A stretch of DNA of 64,000 bases, from positions 20,459 through 84,458 of the forward strand of contig CAINDP010000044.1 in the NCBI GenBank assembly GCA_903847405.1, read 5' to 3'. This document shows, piece after piece, positions 19,404 through 55,759 of the stretch. The notes under the pieces were generated by a model. That model did not search any database. It was not told the origin of the DNA and saw only the letters and a program-made list of their open reading frames with translations. Every line of letters starts with the position of its first letter. The first letter of the stretch is position 1. A program made the translations under genes and the position numbers. Source of the stretch: an uncultured Myxococcales bacterium (GTDB lineage: Bacteria; Myxococcota_A; UBA9042; DTJE01).

Positions 19404-19470
19404 CCGGGGATCCTCCAGATTCGGACGGCGGACTCTAGCGCGAGGCCGGGGGTGGGGGCAAGTGTTCCCC

Positions 19471-19548
19471 GGGCGCGGAGGCGCAGGCGATGGGTTTCCG
19501 AAGGAAACTCTCGCCGGAGACGAAGCCGACTCGGGGCGATTCAATGGG
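19471..19548 (+). repeat. dispersed structured repeat copy A (overlaps the stop codon of the 19541-20047 gene)
   Basis: gggcgcggaggcgcaggcgatgggtttccgaaggaaactctcgccggagacgaagccgactcggggcgattcaatgg. Confidence 0.88.
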
Positions 19549-27281: not shown

Positions 27282-28868
27282 ATGGCTGAACGCGAACTGC
27301 TGCTGGGCGACGAGGCGGTGGCGCTGGGAGCGATCCACGCGGGCATCAGCGGGGCATACGGATATCCGGGCACCCCGTCCACGGAACTGTTTGAATTCGT
27401 GCAGGGCTGCGCGGAGGCCGAAGGCATCCACGCCGTCTGGTCCGCGAACGAAAAGGTGGCCTACGAGGAAGCGCTGGGCATGTCCTTCGCCGGCAAGCGC
27501 AGCATCATCAGCATGAAGCACGTCGGCCTGAACGTGGCCGCCGACGCCTTCGTGAACTCGGGCGTGACCGGGATCCACGGCGGGCTGGTCCTGTGCGTGG
27601 CCGACGACCCGGGCATGCATTCGTCCCAGAACGAGCAGGACTCGCGCTACTACGCGAAGTTCGCCCTGGTGCCCTGCCTGGAACCGGCGGACCAGCAGGA
27701 AGCCTACGACATGGCCCGCGTCGCCTTCGACCTGTCCGAGCAGACGAAGCTGCCGGTGGTGATGCGCATCGTGACGCGCCTGGCGCACAGCCGCGCCGAC
27801 GTCGTGACGGGGGACCGCAGTCCGCAGAACGCGATGAACCCCCTGGCCGACACGTTCAACTTCACGCTGCTGCCGACGATCGCGCGGGTCCTGTACCAGC
27901 GCCTGACCGACAAGCAGCCGGACCTGGAGGCGCGGTCGGAGCGGTCGCCGTGGAACGTGCTGCTGGACGGCCCGGACCACAGCCGCGGCGTGATCGTGAA
28001 CGGCATCGCCTGGAACTACCTGGGCGAGGCCTACGAGGGGAGGATTCCCTACCCGGTCCTGAAGGTCGGCCAGTACCCGGCGCCGGTGGCGAAGATCCGC
28101 GCCCTGCTGGAAATGGTGGACGAGCTGGTCATCCTGGAGGAGGGCTACCCCTTCCTGGAGGAAATGATCCGGGGCGTCACCGGCGTCCACGGCAAGCGCA
28201 TCCGCGGCAAGCTGGACGGCGCGGTCCCGCGCTGCGGCGAACTGACGCCGATGATCGTGGCGAAGGCCATGGGCCTGCCGGTGCCCGATGGCATGGCGCC
28301 CACGCTGGAGGTGGTTCCGAACCGGCCGCCGACGCTGTGCCCGGGGTGCGGCCATATCGACGCGTTCGCCATCATCAAGGCTGCCCTGGCACCCTGGGGC
28401 GACGTGCGGATGTTCGGCGACATCGGCTGCTACACGCTGGGCTACTACCCGCCGCACAACGCGATCGGTTCCTGCGTGGACATGGGCGCCAGCATCAGCA
28501 TGGCGTCCGGCGCGGCCCACGCGGGCATGCACCCCGTCGTCGCGGCGATCGGCGATTCGACCTTCGGGCACTCGGGCATGACGGGCCTGATGACCGCGAT
28601 CCGGGAAAACACGCCGATGACGCTGGTGATCCTGGACAACGGCACGGTTGCCATGACCGGCACGCAGAAGACGATGTGCACGGGCGAGGACCTGGTGAAC
28701 ATCGTCAAGGGGCTGGGCGTGGACCCCGACCATTTCAAGATCATCGAGCCCCACCGCGCCAAGGCGGCGGAACAGGCGGCGATCCTGCGGGCGGAATTCG
28801 AATACCGCGGCACCTCCGTGGTCATCGCCCGTCGTCCCTGCGTGCAGATGAAGCGGAAGGGCGGCTGA
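27282..28868 (+). CDS. iorA: indolepyruvate:ferredoxin oxidoreductase, alpha subunit (thiamine-PP dependent)
   Basis: 528 aa; GAYGYPGTPSTELFEFVQ, NEKVAYEEALGMSFAGKRSIISMKHVGLNVAADAFVNSGVTGIHGG, LCPGCGHIDAFAIIK, GDSTFGHSGMTGL. Lacks the usual C-terminal ferredoxin Cys motifs. Confidence 0.9.
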   Translation: MAERELLLGDEAVALGAIHAGISGAYGYPGTPSTELFEFVQGCAEAEGIHAVWSANEKVAYEEALGMSFAGKRSIISMKHVGLNVAADAFVNSGVTGIHGGLVLCVADDPGMHSSQNEQDSRYYAKFALVPCLEPADQQEAYDMARVAFDLSEQTKLPVVMRIVTRLAHSRADVVTGDRSPQNAMNPLADTFNFTLLPTIARVLYQRLTDKQPDLEARSERSPWNVLLDGPDHSRGVIVNGIAWNYLGEAYEGRIPYPVLKVGQYPAPVAKIRALLEMVDELVILEEGYPFLEEMIRGVTGVHGKRIRGKLDGAVPRCGELTPMIVAKAMGLPVPDGMAPTLEVVPNRPPTLCPGCGHIDAFAIIKAALAPWGDVRMFGDIGCYTLGYYPPHNAIGSCVDMGASISMASGAAHAGMHPVVAAIGDSTFGHSGMTGLMTAIRENTPMTLVILDNGTVAMTGTQKTMCTGEDLVNIVKGLGVDPDHFKIIEPHRAKAAEQAAILRAEFEYRGTSVVIARRPCVQMKRKGG

Positions 28869-28872
28869 CAGC

Positions 28873-28960
28873 CGCCCGCCCGAGCACGGAGGCGGAGGCA
28901 TCGGGATTGCGCATGCAATCTCATGCCGCAGCCGGAGTCGACTCGGGCGCTCTGAATGGT
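28873..28960 (+). repeat. 88-bp tandem repeat unit 1, divergent copy (F1) of the dispersed structured repeat family
   Basis: gcccgagcacggaggcggaggcatcgggattgcgcatgcaatctcatgccgcagccggagtcgactcgggc; near-identical to the next 88 bp. Confidence 0.9.
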
Positions 28961-29048
28961 CGCCCGCCCGAGCACGGAGGCGGAGGCATTGGGATTGCGC
29001 ATGCAATCTCATGCCGCAGCCGGAGTCGACTCGGGCGCTCTTAATGGA
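28961..29048 (+). repeat. 88-bp tandem repeat unit 2 (F2)
   Basis: Differs from F1 at only a few positions (catcggg/cattggg; ctctgaatggtc/ctcttaatggag). Confidence 0.9.
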
Positions 29049-29058
29049 GGTACCCATC

Positions 29059-29832
29059 ATGAAGTACGACATCATCCTCGCCGGCGTCGGCGGCCAGGGC
29101 ATCCTGAGCATCGCGTACCTGCTGGATCACGCGGCGATCGCCCGGGGCTTGCGGTTCAAGCAGGCCGAGGTGCACGGCATGGCGCAGCGCGGCGGGGCGG
29201 TCTACTCGCACATGCGCATCAGCGACGCGCCGATCCTCAGCGACCTGATCCCGGAAGGCCACGCCGACATGATCCTCAGCGTGGAACCGCTGGAGGTCCA
29301 GCGCTACCTGAACTACCTGCGGCCGGGCGGCGTGGTCATCAGCAACGACGAGCCGGTCAAGAACATCGCGGACTACCCGGCGGACGGGCTGGTGGACGCG
29401 GCCCTGATGGCGCTGCCCCGGGCCATCCTGGTCGACGCGGCGGGCATCGCCTCGGCGGCGAAGATGTCCAAGGCGCAGAACATGGTCATGGTCGGTGCGG
29501 CCACGCCGTTCCTGCCGTTCCAGTGGGCGGAGTTCGAACCCTTCGTCCAGCGGTTGTTCGGCGCCAAGGGCGATCACGTCGTCCAGGCGAACATGACGGT
29601 GCTGGAGGCGGGTTGGCGCGTGGGCGCCTTCGCGAAGGAACTGCTGGACGCGGGCGTGTCGTCGGCCCTGGTCGGGCGGTTCCTGGCGCGGCTGCAGCCG
29701 ATGACGCTGGACCCGGCGGCGGCCCGGGGCTACGCCGGAGTGCTGGAAGGGGTGCGGGCCCAGGCGTTCCTGGCGACCGAGGGGGCGCGCGTGGCCTGTG
29801 ACACGGCCCTGCTGAACACCCTGTCGGCTTGA
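29059..29832 (+). CDS. iorB: indolepyruvate:ferredoxin oxidoreductase, beta subunit
   Basis: MKYDIILAGVGGQGILSIAYLLDHAAIARGLRFKQAEVHGMAQRGGAVYSHMRIS; SD GGAGG upstream of the ATG at 29059. Confidence 0.92.
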   Translation: MKYDIILAGVGGQGILSIAYLLDHAAIARGLRFKQAEVHGMAQRGGAVYSHMRISDAPILSDLIPEGHADMILSVEPLEVQRYLNYLRPGGVVISNDEPVKNIADYPADGLVDAALMALPRAILVDAAGIASAAKMSKAQNMVMVGAATPFLPFQWAEFEPFVQRLFGAKGDHVVQANMTVLEAGWRVGAFAKELLDAGVSSALVGRFLARLQPMTLDPAAARGYAGVLEGVRAQAFLATEGARVACDTALLNTLSA

Positions 29833-34203: not shown

Positions 34204-36696
34204 ATGCGCGTGCTGGGCTGTGCGATCGTGGCCATGATGCTGACGGTGGGGTGCGGGGGCGGGAGTACGGCGACGGACACGGCCCTGCCGGACGTGGCCG
34301 GGGACGTCACCCCCGACGTGCCGACGGACGTGCCCCAGGGCGACGTGCCCTCCGAAGAAGGGGACGTTCCGCTGGTGGATCTGCCCGAGGAAGTCGCCGA
34401 CGCGCCGGCGCTGCCGGACCCGGCCTTCATCCACGCGGTGCGCGAGCACGCGGACAAGGTCGTGGACTCGCCGGCGCTGATCGACGAGCCCGTGCAGTAC
34501 AGCATGGGCAGCATGCCGGACCCGGAGGTGCGGAAGATCGTCGTGGTGGGTGACACCGTGTGGGTGGGCACCGGCTCGGGCATCGCCCGCTACAACGCGG
34601 TCACGGACGTGTTCGACGGCATCGGGCTGCCCCAGGACCCCTCGCATCCCGGCCCCCTGGCCATGACCGTCCTGGACATGGCCGCTTCCCCGGACGGCAC
34701 CTTGATCGCCGTCGCGCTGCGGAACGCGTTCCATATCCTGGGGGCCGACGGGGACATCCTGCGTTCGTTCACCACCGAGGATCCCACCATCGCCATCGAC
34801 GTCCAGAACGACGGGTCGCTGGTCGTGGGAACCCAGACCGACATGTGGGCGGCGCCCGCGGCGGGCGATTTCACATCGATCGTGTATTCCGAAGGGTGGG
34901 ACGTCCGGGACGTGCTGTACGCCGGCGGCAGCCTGTTCACGGTGACGACCAGCGGCATGGTCTACCGGGACGACCAGCCCCTGACGTTGCCGGAGGAACC
35001 CGGTGTCGCGATCGGGCTGGCCCGGGCCGGCGACGACGGCGTGTTGATCGCGTGCACGAACGGCATCGCGCGGGCCGATTTCAGCGGGGACGTCGAAACG
35101 ATCCTGCTGCCGGGGAAGGGCGGGCTGCCGACCGACATGGTGACGTCGGCGGTGCAGTCCGGGAATTCCGTGCTGGTCGGGCACGCCATCGGCGCGTCGG
35201 CCGTCACGATCGCCGGCGGCGTTCCTGCGTCGGCCTTCGATCACTACGTGGGCGAGCGGTGGATTGCAAACAACGCGGTCATGGCCGTCGCGATCGATTC
35301 CAGCGGATCGCGCTGGCTGGGCACGCCCGGCGGCGCGACGCGCGTCCGGCTCAGCAACCGGCGCATCGCCGACAAGGTGGGCCCGACCTTCGATCTGTGG
35401 ATGGCCCATTTCTGGCGCATGGGCGGCTTCCTGATGTCCGACGCGGGGACCGACGACGCGTGGAACCCGACGGTCTGGACCACCAGCGACTACGACAACG
35501 ACGGTCTGTGGACCCAGATGGGCATCGGCGCGCTGTGCATGGCCTACAGCGTCACCCAGGACGAGAAGTACTACCAGGCCGCCCGCAAGGCCATGGACAA
35601 CATGTTCCTGCTGATCGACGTACCCGCCGTGGACTTCGAACAGACCAGCCTGGGCCGCGGGTTCATCACGCGCTCGCTGGTGCGGGAGGACGAGGGCGCG
35701 CTGTACACCAGCAAACTGACCCAGACGAACTGGCACCCGGTGACCTACAAGGGCCTCAACTACGTCTGGAAGGACGACACCTCGTCCGACGAAACCACCG
35801 GGCATTTCTTCGGCTTCCCCCTGTTCTACGACCTCTGCGCGAAGGACGACGCCGAGCGGGCCGCGGTGGCCGAGCATGCCGGGGCCCTGGCGAAGTACAT
35901 CGTGGACGGCGGGTACACCCTGCGGGACCTGGACGGCATGCCCACGTCGTTCGGGCACTACGAGCCGTCGCACGTCAGCATCGCGGTGGACGGCCTGGTG
36001 ACGTGCAGTGACAACGGGTACTCGATCGACGACTGCGTGGGCGCGATGTACGGCGCGGGTTGGCTGAACGGGATCGAGATTCTGGGCCACCTGCTGGCGA
36101 CCTGGCACATGACGGGCGACCGGTTCTTCTACGACGCCTACGAAACCCTCATCAGCACGCACCGGTATGACGAGGTTGCCGTAACCTCCCGGGACGCGGA
36201 AACCGTCACGAACCCGAAACTGGCGAACCACTCCGATCACGAACTGGCGATGCTGGCCTACGCGACCCTGATCCGGTACGAACCGAATGCCGACCGTCGG
36301 GCGAAGTGGATCGATTCGCTGCTGGGAATGTACGAGTTCGAAATCCCGGAACGGCAGCCCCTGTGGGCCGCCATCGTGGCCCTGGCGACGGCGGGCCAGG
36401 CGGAGGTCCCCGCGGCGGTCCAGACCCTGCGCGAAATGCCGCAGGACCTGCGGGATTGGGCCGTGGACAACACCCACCGGAAGGACGCGGTCCATGGACC
36501 CAGCGACCGCTTCGAGAACCCGCAGTGGACCACGGTCTTCCCGTATGACGAAATCCGCACGATGTGGTGGAACGGGAACCCCTACGCGGTGGCCGGCGGT
36601 TCCTGGGGCCGCAACACGGTCAGTCCCACCGCGTTCCAGTTGGCGTATTGGGCCCAGCGGTATGCCGGCATCCTGGTCGATCCGCCCGCGAAGTAG
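34204..36696 (+). CDS. large lipoprotein: propeller-like N-terminus, helical-toroid-like C-terminus
   Basis: MRVLGCAIVAMMLTVGCGGG lipobox, PDVPTDVPQGDVP linker, GDTVWVGTGSGIARYNAVTDVF propeller-like strands, then W/Y-rich helical region. Confidence 0.78.
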   Translation: MRVLGCAIVAMMLTVGCGGGSTATDTALPDVAGDVTPDVPTDVPQGDVPSEEGDVPLVDLPEEVADAPALPDPAFIHAVREHADKVVDSPALIDEPVQYSMGSMPDPEVRKIVVVGDTVWVGTGSGIARYNAVTDVFDGIGLPQDPSHPGPLAMTVLDMAASPDGTLIAVALRNAFHILGADGDILRSFTTEDPTIAIDVQNDGSLVVGTQTDMWAAPAAGDFTSIVYSEGWDVRDVLYAGGSLFTVTTSGMVYRDDQPLTLPEEPGVAIGLARAGDDGVLIACTNGIARADFSGDVETILLPGKGGLPTDMVTSAVQSGNSVLVGHAIGASAVTIAGGVPASAFDHYVGERWIANNAVMAVAIDSSGSRWLGTPGGATRVRLSNRRIADKVGPTFDLWMAHFWRMGGFLMSDAGTDDAWNPTVWTTSDYDNDGLWTQMGIGALCMAYSVTQDEKYYQAARKAMDNMFLLIDVPAVDFEQTSLGRGFITRSLVREDEGALYTSKLTQTNWHPVTYKGLNYVWKDDTSSDETTGHFFGFPLFYDLCAKDDAERAAVAEHAGALAKYIVDGGYTLRDLDGMPTSFGHYEPSHVSIAVDGLVTCSDNGYSIDDCVGAMYGAGWLNGIEILGHLLATWHMTGDRFFYDAYETLISTHRYDEVAVTSRDAETVTNPKLANHSDHELAMLAYATLIRYEPNADRRAKWIDSLLGMYEFEIPERQPLWAAIVALATAGQAEVPAAVQTLREMPQDLRDWAVDNTHRKDAVHGPSDRFENPQWTTVFPYDEIRTMWWNGNPYAVAGGSWGRNTVSPTAFQLAYWAQRYAGILVDPPAK

Positions 36697-38150: not shown

Positions 38151-38236
38151 TGTTCCTCTCGAGCGCGCAGGCGCAGGCGACGGGTTTCCTCAGGAAACTC
38201 TCGCCGTAGCCGAAGCCGACTCGGGACGATCCAATG
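38151..38236 (+). repeat. dispersed structured repeat copy B
   Basis: gagcgcgcaggcgcaggcgacgggtttcctcaggaaactctcgccgtagccgaagccgactcgggacgatccaatg; matches copies A, C, D, E. Confidence 0.92.
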
Positions 38237-43464: not shown

Positions 43465-43550
43465 TTGTTCCTCCCGAGCGCGCAGGCGCAGGCGATGGGT
43501 TTCCGCAGGAAACTCTCGCCGGAGCCGAAGCCGACTCGGGACGATCCAAC
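43465..43550 (+). repeat. dispersed structured repeat copy C
   Basis: tgttcctcccgagcgcgcaggcgcaggcgatgggtttccgcaggaaactctcgccggagccgaagccgactcgggacgatccaac. Confidence 0.93.
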
Positions 43551-44580: not shown

Positions 44581-44682
44581 TTGTTGGACCGTCCCGAGTC
44601 GGCTCCGGCTCCAGCGAGAGTTTCCTGCGGAAACCCATCCCGTCGCCTGAAGGCTCGGCCGCCTGCGCGCTCGGGAGGCGCA
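44581..44682 (-). repeat. dispersed structured repeat copy D (inverted relative to C, with ~20-bp internal insertion)
   Basis: ttggaccgtcccgagtcggctccggctccagcgagagtttcctgcggaaacccatc...gcctgcgcgctcgggagg. Confidence 0.92.
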
Positions 44683-53077: not shown

Positions 53078-55759
53078 TCAACGGGACCCGGCCCTCGATC
53101 GCTCGAAAGCAAGCAGCAGCGCGGCTTCCAGCTGCGAAAGGGAGTACGGCTTCTGCAGGAACACGGTCGGGTGCCCCTCGACCTGCAGTTCCGGTACGGC
53201 CTCCTTGCTGTAGCCGCTGGTCAGGAGGATCGGGATTCGGGGGTTCACCGCCCGGATCAGGCGATGAACCTCGGCGCCACCCCTGCGGGGCATCGTCAGG
53301 TCCAGGATGACCGCCACCAGGTCCGGTCGGGACTGGAACGCCGCCCAGGCGGCGTCGCCGTCCGCGGCGTCCACCACCGTCATGCCGAATCGCTGGACCA
53401 TCTGTCGGGTCGCGTCCCGGACCGCGGGCTCGTCCTCCGCCAACAGCAGGGGCCCGCGAAGCGTCCGGACATCGACCTCGTCCCGGTGGGCCGTGTCCGG
53501 TCCGCGAACGGCAGACGGATCCACCGGAAAGTGGACCCGGAACAGGGTGCCCCGGCCCGGCTGGGACTGGATTTCGATGCCCGCCCGGTGGGCGCGCAGG
53601 ATGCCCCGCATGGCCGAAAGCCCCAGCCCCCGGCCCGCGGGCTTGGTCGTGAAGAACGGATCGAAGATCCGCGCCAGGACCTCCTGGGTCATTCCCATGC
53701 CGTTGTCCCGCACCGCCAGGGTCACGTAGGCCCCCGCCGCAAGACCCTGGCCGGGCATCAGGCGTTCGATGTCCTCCGCGGTCAGGAACGTCGCCCGGGT
53801 CGAAAGCTGCACGCAGCCGGCCTCGGCGCCGATGGCCTCGCTGGCGTTCGTAACCAGGTTCATCACGACCTGCTGCAACTGGACCGGGTCCCCACGGACG
53901 GCAGGCAGCCCCGGGGCCAGATCCTGCTCCAGGGTCACCTTCGTCAGGCGGCTGACGCCCAGCAGCCCGCTCATCTCCTCGACCAGGGCGTTCAGGTCCA
54001 CCTGCTCGACCTGGAACGACGCGTGACCGGAGTACGCCAGGAGTTGCCTGGCCAGGCTGGCTGCCCGCTGGATGCTGGCATCCATGCGCTCCAGGAAGTG
54101 CGACGGGTCCTTTCCCTCGTCCACGGCCAGCCGGCACAGCCCCTGGTACCCCTGGATCGACGTCAGCAGGTTGTTGAAATCGTGGGCGATCCCGCCCGCC
54201 AGCAATCCCAGGCCCTCCAGCTTCTGCGCCTGGAGGTGGGCGTCCTCCTGGGCCCGACGCTCGGAAACGTCACGGGCCACCCAGACCACGCAGGCGCGCC
54301 CGTCCACCTCGATGCCCATGGGCGCGACGCGTGCCTCGAAACGCACCAGCCCACGGGCGGTGTCGAGGGCGTATTCCAGCGATTCCACCCGGGCCTTGTC
54401 CAGGGAGCGTCGGATCGTCGAAATCACCTCGGTCGCGACCCCGGTCGGCAGCAGTTCCTGGACCGTTCGGCCGACCAGTTCGTCGGAGGCCTGGGACAGC
54501 CCGGATCGCTCGCCGTTGTGGACCTCGATGAACCGCCCGTCGGAATCCAGGACCAGGATGCCGTCGGGCATGACCTGGGTGACGGCGCGCAGCCGCGACT
54601 CGCTGCGGCGAAGCTGCTCGGTCATGCGATCCGCCAGGTCCCGCGCCCGCAGGCCGGTCCGGCTGATCGATCGGACCAGCGCCGCCAGCAGCAGGGCGAT
54701 CAGCAGGAATGCCGTCCCGACGATCCAGGGCAGTGCGATTTCGGGACCGTGGAAAAAGGTCGGTCCGGCGCTGAACTCCAGCGCCCACCTGCGGCCGGCC
54801 ACCAACCGCTCGACGTGCTCGTCCGGGCCGCCGGGCGCCAGGCGGTGCCACCAGCGCAAGGGGAGATCCCGGCCGCCCTCCAGGAACGGTTGCGGTCCAC
54901 CGGGCCCCGAAACGTCGGACATGCTGACCCGCACGCCGTCCACGGACAGGCGCCCGGTGGCGTCCTGGGCCAGCAACCGCAGCAGGAACACGGCGTTCAC
55001 GTACCCCGTGAAGTGCTCTCGGCGTTCTTCCGCGGTGTCCGGCACCACGGTGCCGTCGTACAGCGCCAGACGAAGGATCAGCCCGGGGCCTGCCGTCGGT
55101 GCCTGCATCACCGGCATCGGTGCGCTGGCCCGCAGCTCCCCCGAGTCCCGGGCCTCGATCAACGACGCCCGTTGCTGTTGGGAACTGGCGGAATTGAATC
55201 CCAGAACGGCAGAATTGACGCCTTCCGGCTCGCCGTACAGGACGATCGTGTCGTCGCCGAATCCCGCACCCGGGTGGATGTGCAGACCGGGGTTTCCATG
55301 CTCGGTTCGAAGCCGCTCCTCGAGGGCCTCCAGCCCGCCCTCGGGAACCGGGACTCCGTACGAAACCCCCAGCAGCCCCGGGTACCGGTCGTCCAGGCCC
55401 ATGGCCCGCAGGAGGATCCGGAAGCGCTGCCGGTCCAGGCGTCCGTTCGCCTGCTCGAATCCCCGCACCCCCCGCAGGAGGTCTTCGCAGACCCGCAGCC
55501 GCTCGGACAGCCGTCCCAGGGACTCGACCACGGCGGCGTCGAACCGTGCCTGCGCGCGCTTTTCCTGGAGGGCTCGGACGACCTGAAAGCCGCCGAGGCT
55601 GGCGGCAATCCCGCCGATCAGGATCCAGCCCGCCAGTCCCGGGCGAAATTGGAGCGTCCCGAGTCGGCTTCGGCTCCGGCGAGAGTCTCCCGTGGAAACC
55701 CATCGCCTACGCCTGCGCGCTCGGGAGGAGCAGATGCGGAGGACATCGCGGACATTCAT
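53078..55759 (-). CDS. hybrid histidine kinase (CHASE, PAS, HisKA, HATPase, REC)
   Basis: CHASE-like VLYGEPEGVNSAVLGFNSASSQQQRASLIEARDSGELRAS; GIAHDFNNLLTSIQGY; NLVTNASEAIG; REC LLAEDEPAVRDATRQMVQRFG...VILDLTMPRRGG. Confidence 0.92.
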   Translation of the reverse strand: MNVRDVLRICSSRARRRRRWVSTGDSRRSRSRLGTLQFRPGLAGWILIGGIAASLGGFQVVRALQEKRAQARFDAAVVESLGRLSERLRVCEDLLRGVRGFEQANGRLDRQRFRILLRAMGLDDRYPGLLGVSYGVPVPEGGLEALEERLRTEHGNPGLHIHPGAGFGDDTIVLYGEPEGVNSAVLGFNSASSQQQRASLIEARDSGELRASAPMPVMQAPTAGPGLILRLALYDGTVVPDTAEERREHFTGYVNAVFLLRLLAQDATGRLSVDGVRVSMSDVSGPGGPQPFLEGGRDLPLRWWHRLAPGGPDEHVERLVAGRRWALEFSAGPTFFHGPEIALPWIVGTAFLLIALLLAALVRSISRTGLRARDLADRMTEQLRRSESRLRAVTQVMPDGILVLDSDGRFIEVHNGERSGLSQASDELVGRTVQELLPTGVATEVISTIRRSLDKARVESLEYALDTARGLVRFEARVAPMGIEVDGRACVVWVARDVSERRAQEDAHLQAQKLEGLGLLAGGIAHDFNNLLTSIQGYQGLCRLAVDEGKDPSHFLERMDASIQRAASLARQLLAYSGHASFQVEQVDLNALVEEMSGLLGVSRLTKVTLEQDLAPGLPAVRGDPVQLQQVVMNLVTNASEAIGAEAGCVQLSTRATFLTAEDIERLMPGQGLAAGAYVTLAVRDNGMGMTQEVLARIFDPFFTTKPAGRGLGLSAMRGILRAHRAGIEIQSQPGRGTLFRVHFPVDPSAVRGPDTAHRDEVDVRTLRGPLLLAEDEPAVRDATRQMVQRFGMTVVDAADGDAAWAAFQSRPDLVAVILDLTMPRRGGAEVHRLIRAVNPRIPILLTSGYSKEAVPELQVEGHPTVFLQKPYSLSQLEAALLLAFERSRAGSR
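55648..55735 (-). repeat. dispersed structured repeat copy E, in frame within the kinase N-terminus
   Basis: ttggagcgtcccgagtcggcttcggctccggcgagagtctcccgtggaaacccatcgcctacgcctgcgcgctcgggag. Confidence 0.92.

Follow-up and report, generated by a model that had tools for sequence, protein, structure and literature searches.

The junction between an IorA-like gene (POR_N and TPP_enzyme_C domains; positions 27282–28868, plus strand) and an IorB-like gene (POR domain; 29059–29832, plus strand) of an uncultured Myxococcales bacterium holds a head-to-tail pair of copies of a hairpin repeat, which raises the question of what maintains the fold of such a repeat and in which state, RNA or single-stranded DNA (ssDNA), it is maintained. 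All positions refer to the window, that is, the whole stretch of 64,000 nucleotides that was analyzed. A sequence-only reading of the first copy, at 28873–28960, had noted that three nested pairings recur in related copies with different bases, and had attributed this to selection on a folded RNA or ssDNA hairpin. We consider it likely that 28873–28960 belongs to a family of mobile palindromic elements that is genus-specific and non-autonomous and for which a folded single strand is the functional state.

Structure of the element and its copies in the window

The first tandem unit (28873–28960, plus strand, 88 nt) contains a hairpin core at 28878–28948, in which every pairing quoted in the sequence-only reading is present: outer GCCCGAG/CTCGGGC, middle GGCAT/ATGCC, and inner GATTGC-GCAT-GCAATC. 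The core is made up of an outer stem (28878–28887 with 28937–28948, C28939 and A28941 being bulged), an internal loop (GGA at 28888–28890 opposite GGA at 28934–28936), a middle 3-bp stem (28891–28893/28931–28933), a second internal loop (GGA at 28894–28896 opposite GCA at 28928–28930), a 5-bp stem (28897–28901/28923–28927), and an apical stem (28903–28910/28915–28922) with its loop at 28911–28914; both internal loops are of the form GNA/GNA. This fold beats 200 of 200 dinucleotide shuffles (−44.6 versus −35.4 kcal/mol; z −2.7). The second unit (28961–29047, plus strand; hairpin core 28966–29036) is 98% identical to the first and scores 91.2 bits against the covariance model of the family. A tRNA/tmRNA search found none, and no part of the window reached the gathering score of an Rfam 15 covariance model, nor did any match appear at E ≤ 1 around the element.

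Relatives of this element occur at five further sites in the window, where the other copies named in that reading were located. They lie at 19467–19536 (plus strand, its copy A, antisense between two minus-strand genes); at 38157–38226 (plus strand, in a divergent intergenic region; the corresponding site of a congener, G001, is shorter by 84 nt); at 43472–43541 (plus strand, copy C) and 55657–55726 (minus strand, copy E), both in divergent intergenic regions; and at 44592–44676 (minus strand), a variant with an enlarged 5′ arm and an 85-nt core. This 15-nt-longer variant, in which a GGCCGAGCCTTCAGGCGA-type stretch is inserted in the 5′ arm, was also seen in loci L111 (5766–5850) and L120 (6365–6449). 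Shortened copies (L118, L119, L121, and L120:2354–2409) are missing either the apical stem or their entire middle and have kept the outer stem, and in one copy (L115, 2389–2489) GGAGCC repeats are expanded in the 3′ arm, which suggests slippage.

Family size and distribution

A covariance model built from 31 copies returned about 126 matches in this genome (G000) and about 129 in the congener G001 (117 were scored in one earlier scan), and 2 in a second congener, G002; these counts include matches near the E cut-off. With the same model, 33 other relatives gave no match, nor did the remaining 49 of the 52 class genomes or the remaining 234 of the 237 genomes in the phylum sample; across these genomes, the hairpin repeat family is genus-specific. 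When a broad DNA pattern was run over GTDB genomes, the matches listed were mostly chance hits in GC-rich DNA, and the real copies among them came only from G001. A single weak match (34.9 bits) in a record labelled Candidatus Kuenenia stuttgartiensis (L214, 4712–4802) has a wholly different outer stem and the same arrangement of GNA/GNA loops, and is possibly convergent or a distant family; a second match in that genome looks like chance or coding sequence. The tandem repeats of another locus, L207, were set aside as resembling the element arms by composition only.

The repeating unit is about 84 nt long and reads roughly as TGTTCC, a 70-nt imperfect hairpin, and CGATCCAA. Spacing within tandems in this genome is mostly 84 nt, and close pairs of copies share the same orientation. 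Two main subfamilies can be told apart, GCCCGAGCAC...GTCGNCTCGGGC and TCCCGAGCGC...GCCGACTCGGGA.

Covariation and strand specificity of the fold

The fold common to the family is a rod: an outer 10-bp stem, a GNA/GNA loop, a 3-bp GGC/GCC stem, a second GNA/GNA loop, a 5-bp stem, an 8-bp apical stem, and a short loop. In an alignment of 111 copies, which was fitted to the covariance model and leans towards structure, standard pairs fill 98.0% of pair cells versus 91.2% after shuffling, two-sided changes occur at 15 of 26 pairs, and cells with two-sided changes number 173 versus 51.5 in shuffled data (0 of 500 shuffles reach this); every slid pairing register fails. Compensatory change that preserves the fold, as the sequence-only reading had it, is a property of the family and far better supported than that reading had stated, and the covariation check it had called for, with a covariance model on genome-wide copies, gave a concordant answer. 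The test was our own imitation of R-scape and not R-scape itself (a FastTree tree, a null that keeps this tree and redistributes substitutions over its branches, and an APC-corrected G-test); its top four scores all fell on structural pairs, with E ≤ 0.05. Two off-structure pairs were also significant; both connect one covarying apical pair with the other, and these two apical pairs change together (GTTTCC/GGAAAC to GATTGC/GCAATC). The covariation exceeds this subfamily contrast, since the middle stem has been replaced independently (GTCGA/TCGAC, GGCAT/ATGCC, GGCAA/TTGCC), as has the apex (GATCGC/GCGATC).

Double changes on paired columns fell on the same branch 28 times (null mean 2.1, maximum 8 in 2000), mostly without a broken intermediate, on copy-level phylogenies that are rough because copies may recombine. 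Such a pattern could also be mutational. Template switching within hairpins, a documented process, can give two-sided changes in one step (PMC8794818), so that covariation alone is no proof of selection, and some of the 28 double changes may have arisen in this manner. If quasipalindrome correction of this kind, rewriting one arm from the other, accounted for the compensatory changes, no structural selection would be needed, and their abundance on single branches speaks for it. Template switching should, however, turn the GNA/GNA loops and the G-T wobble into Watson–Crick pairs, and both are kept in nearly all copies, with N free. That the loops and the wobble have stayed uncorrected speaks for a shape maintained by selection or recognition, and we regard a purely mutational origin as unlikely.

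In each of the two 3 × 3 internal loops, both sides have the sequence GNA, with G and A near-invariant and N free in 93 standard copies; parsimony changes per site are 1.25 for loop G/A, 21.75 for loop N, and 2.69 for stem positions (109 copies). G-A and A-G pairs flanking a free N-N are a stable motif in RNA and DNA alike, and the G-A pairs in the GNA/GNA loops of the element are probably sheared. The apical stem has a G-U(T) wobble at its base, which 106 of 107 copies retain. The quoted (top) strand folds better than its complement for 82 of 82 distinct cores with RNA parameters and for 80 of 82 with DNA parameters; the opposite strand would have A-C and T/C mismatches instead and folds worse, which places the constraint on one strand. 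The evidence thus supports a constrained, strand-specific fold in the family.

Placement relative to genes

Gene placement was taken from our own codon-usage gene caller, and the calls are uncurated. By these calls, intergenic copies are sense in 23 cases, antisense in 20, in divergent regions in 33, and in convergent regions in 4, and 20 copies lie within called genes, even though coding sequence makes up about 90% of the loci. This placement is consistent with copies that enter non-coding DNA and are purged from genes, and involves neither a requirement for the RNA sense nor a bias to 3′ ends.

Copies within genes were found on either strand, and in eight clearly bounded cases the reading frame stays open. 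The insertions translate as PPERAGAGDGFPQETLAGAEADSG or, from the other strand, as RPESASAPARVSSGNPSPAPSRSG. They are often beside Pfam domains, for example between DAO and DAO_C, before Memo, before Radical_SAM, and after APH; a further copy is near the NAD-domain boundary of 2-Hacid_dh, and one falls inside a YdjM match.

These observations bear on the part of the earlier proposal that left RNA and ssDNA side by side: selection on a strand-specific fold stands, and RNA as its target is not established. A structured RNA acting in cis, for instance as an mRNA stabilizer, a processing site, or a leader element, would have its fold kept by selection on the transcript, and would agree with the covariation, with the G-U conserved on one strand, and with the ior copies, which are sense and inside a likely operon. 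The lack of a sense bias, the many copies in divergent promoter regions, and the in-gene copies on both strands argue instead for a role at the DNA level, as an ssDNA hairpin, or for a selfish one. The same ior junction, moreover, is without a copy in G002 and has a shrunken one in G001, and Rfam offers no match. These data lend no support to a folded RNA with a role in cis, and we give this explanation a low probability. That the repeats are intrinsic transcription terminators has next to no likelihood: they are stable, GC-rich, and mostly intergenic hairpins, but TTTT follows within 20 nt downstream in only 1 of 76 copies, only the 4 intergenic copies noted above are in convergent regions, and others are inside genes.

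Gain and loss between congeners

Mobility is indicated by comparison with the congeners. Most of the copy-bearing genes of this genome that we compared are without the copy in a congener, and flanking homology gives lengths of 84, 84, 81, 84, 84, 81, 81, and 99 nt for the eight clearly bounded in-gene insertions (the last 81-nt case was measured against G002, and the 99-nt case is the variant with the 85-nt core). At two less clearly bounded in-gene sites, the lengths came to 90 and 36 nt. Because the congeners are only about 80% identical, boundaries can be placed to within a few bases. At the ior locus, a copy upstream of iorA is present in G001 and missing in G000 and G002, and the iorA–iorB junction retains only an apparent shrunken remnant in G001 (CTCGAGCACGGAGGCGGAGTCGCCTCCGG) and nothing recognizable in G002. 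The empty sites and the differences at the ior locus show that copies have been gained and lost between species, and some "empty" sites may be deletions, as the remnant in G001 illustrates.

No target-site duplication stood out above shuffled flank pairs except the element's own TCC/TCC, in a comparison that could miss short ones. In 47 of 76 non-tandem copies, position −10 of the 5′ flank, outside the apparent 84-nt unit, is C, possibly a target preference.

Comparison with known mobile repeats

Dispersed, mostly intergenic hairpins at more than 100 per genome, with one strand distinctive and internal mismatches conserved, recall REP sequences. A model is offered by the E. coli TnpA-REP enzyme, which works on only one of the ssDNA strands and needs a bulge in the stem for its activity (PMC8266576). 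The family could then be a true REP family moved by a RAYT (TnpA-REP) transposase that has disappeared or falls within a gap of the assembly. Dispersed palindromes with a strand-specific, internally mismatched hairpin, as in E. coli (PMC8266576), and the one Y1_Tnp gene of this genome would suit that explanation. However, GTAG is found in 3 of 76 5′ flanks and 0 of 76 3′ flanks, GGAG in 4 and 0, with low to moderate counts of their reverse complements; the 70-nt core is longer than the 20–40 bp of REPs (PMC3733652); tandems are head-to-tail and not inverted; and there is no bias to 3′ ends. The Y1_Tnp gene (locus L066, contig C82 of G000, about 35045–35383), the sole one detected in this genome, is flanked by a different palindrome, and its locus has no match to our model. 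That inverted palindrome (AAGTGGGACAGTCACCC; L066 1295–1348 and 2169–2193), which flanks the RAYT-like Y1 transposase gene, is unrelated to the element. Searches for the mobilizing enzyme found no Y1_Tnp in the copy-rich G001 or in G002, the genomes being 92–97% complete, and no transposase was recognized by eye among the genes called between close copy pairs. With no GTAG tag and no element-flanked RAYT gene, we do not file the element as a REP, and a RAYT origin seems very improbable.

The family also resembles the Rickettsia palindromic elements (RPE), which are palindromic, dispersed, non-autonomous, and genus-restricted, and are found both between genes and in-frame within protein genes (PMC10969869, PMC3733652). 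The eight clearly bounded in-gene copies share this in-frame insertion into protein genes. Set side by side by descriptions and not by sequences, the two differ in unit length (about 84 nt versus about 150 bp for RPE) and in the two GNA/GNA loops and head-to-tail tandems of our element. RPE are grouped with CGTC-tagged repeats, and our element has in common with these that no dedicated transposase is known (PMC3733652). In our family, CGTC occurs in 12 of 76 5′ flanks and 2 of 76 3′ flanks (its reverse complement in 4 and 5), too seldom for an end tag. With MITEs, the element has in common its short length, non-autonomous nature, inverted-repeat structure, and insertion polymorphism, but neither a target-site duplication nor a parent insertion sequence was found, and the hairpin spans the whole unit whereas the terminal repeats of MITEs are separated. 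Integron attC sites are likewise imperfect hairpins that are used in folded, single-stranded form and have extrahelical bases (cited in PMC8266576); the present element, by contrast, is dispersed singly among housekeeping genes and not in a cassette array (R and L boxes were looked for by eye).

Proposed explanation and implications

Our preferred explanation is the mobile palindromic element put forward at the outset, operating in the manner of REPs and RPE. It would insert as a unit of about 84 nt, at times in head-to-tail tandems, mostly between genes and sometimes in-frame within them, and the state conserved would be one particular strand folded as a rod. This strand would be exposed as ssDNA during replication and recognized in its folded form by an enzyme acting in trans, with the GNA/GNA loops as part of what is recognized. 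More tentatively, and with the odds against it, the family may represent a new class of ssDNA mobile hairpin outside Rickettsia and relatives, marked by a pair of GNA/GNA (tandem G-A) internal loops that a non-Y1 enzyme reads, and able to enter even genes for enzymes, where it adds an in-frame linker of 27–28 codons.

If the mobile-element explanation is right, this family would show cleanly that evolution can keep a dispersed bacterial palindrome as a folded single strand and not as a linear sequence, and its more than 100 natural variants separate constrained positions (stem, loop G/A) from free ones (loop N). In-frame insertions into enzymes beside domain boundaries offer, in a bacterium unrelated to Rickettsia, a parallel to the elements of that genus, and the in-gene copies are natural experiments on the tolerance of proteins to 27–28 extra residues. 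With 126, 129, and 2 copies in three congeners, the search for the mobilizing enzyme becomes a tractable comparison.
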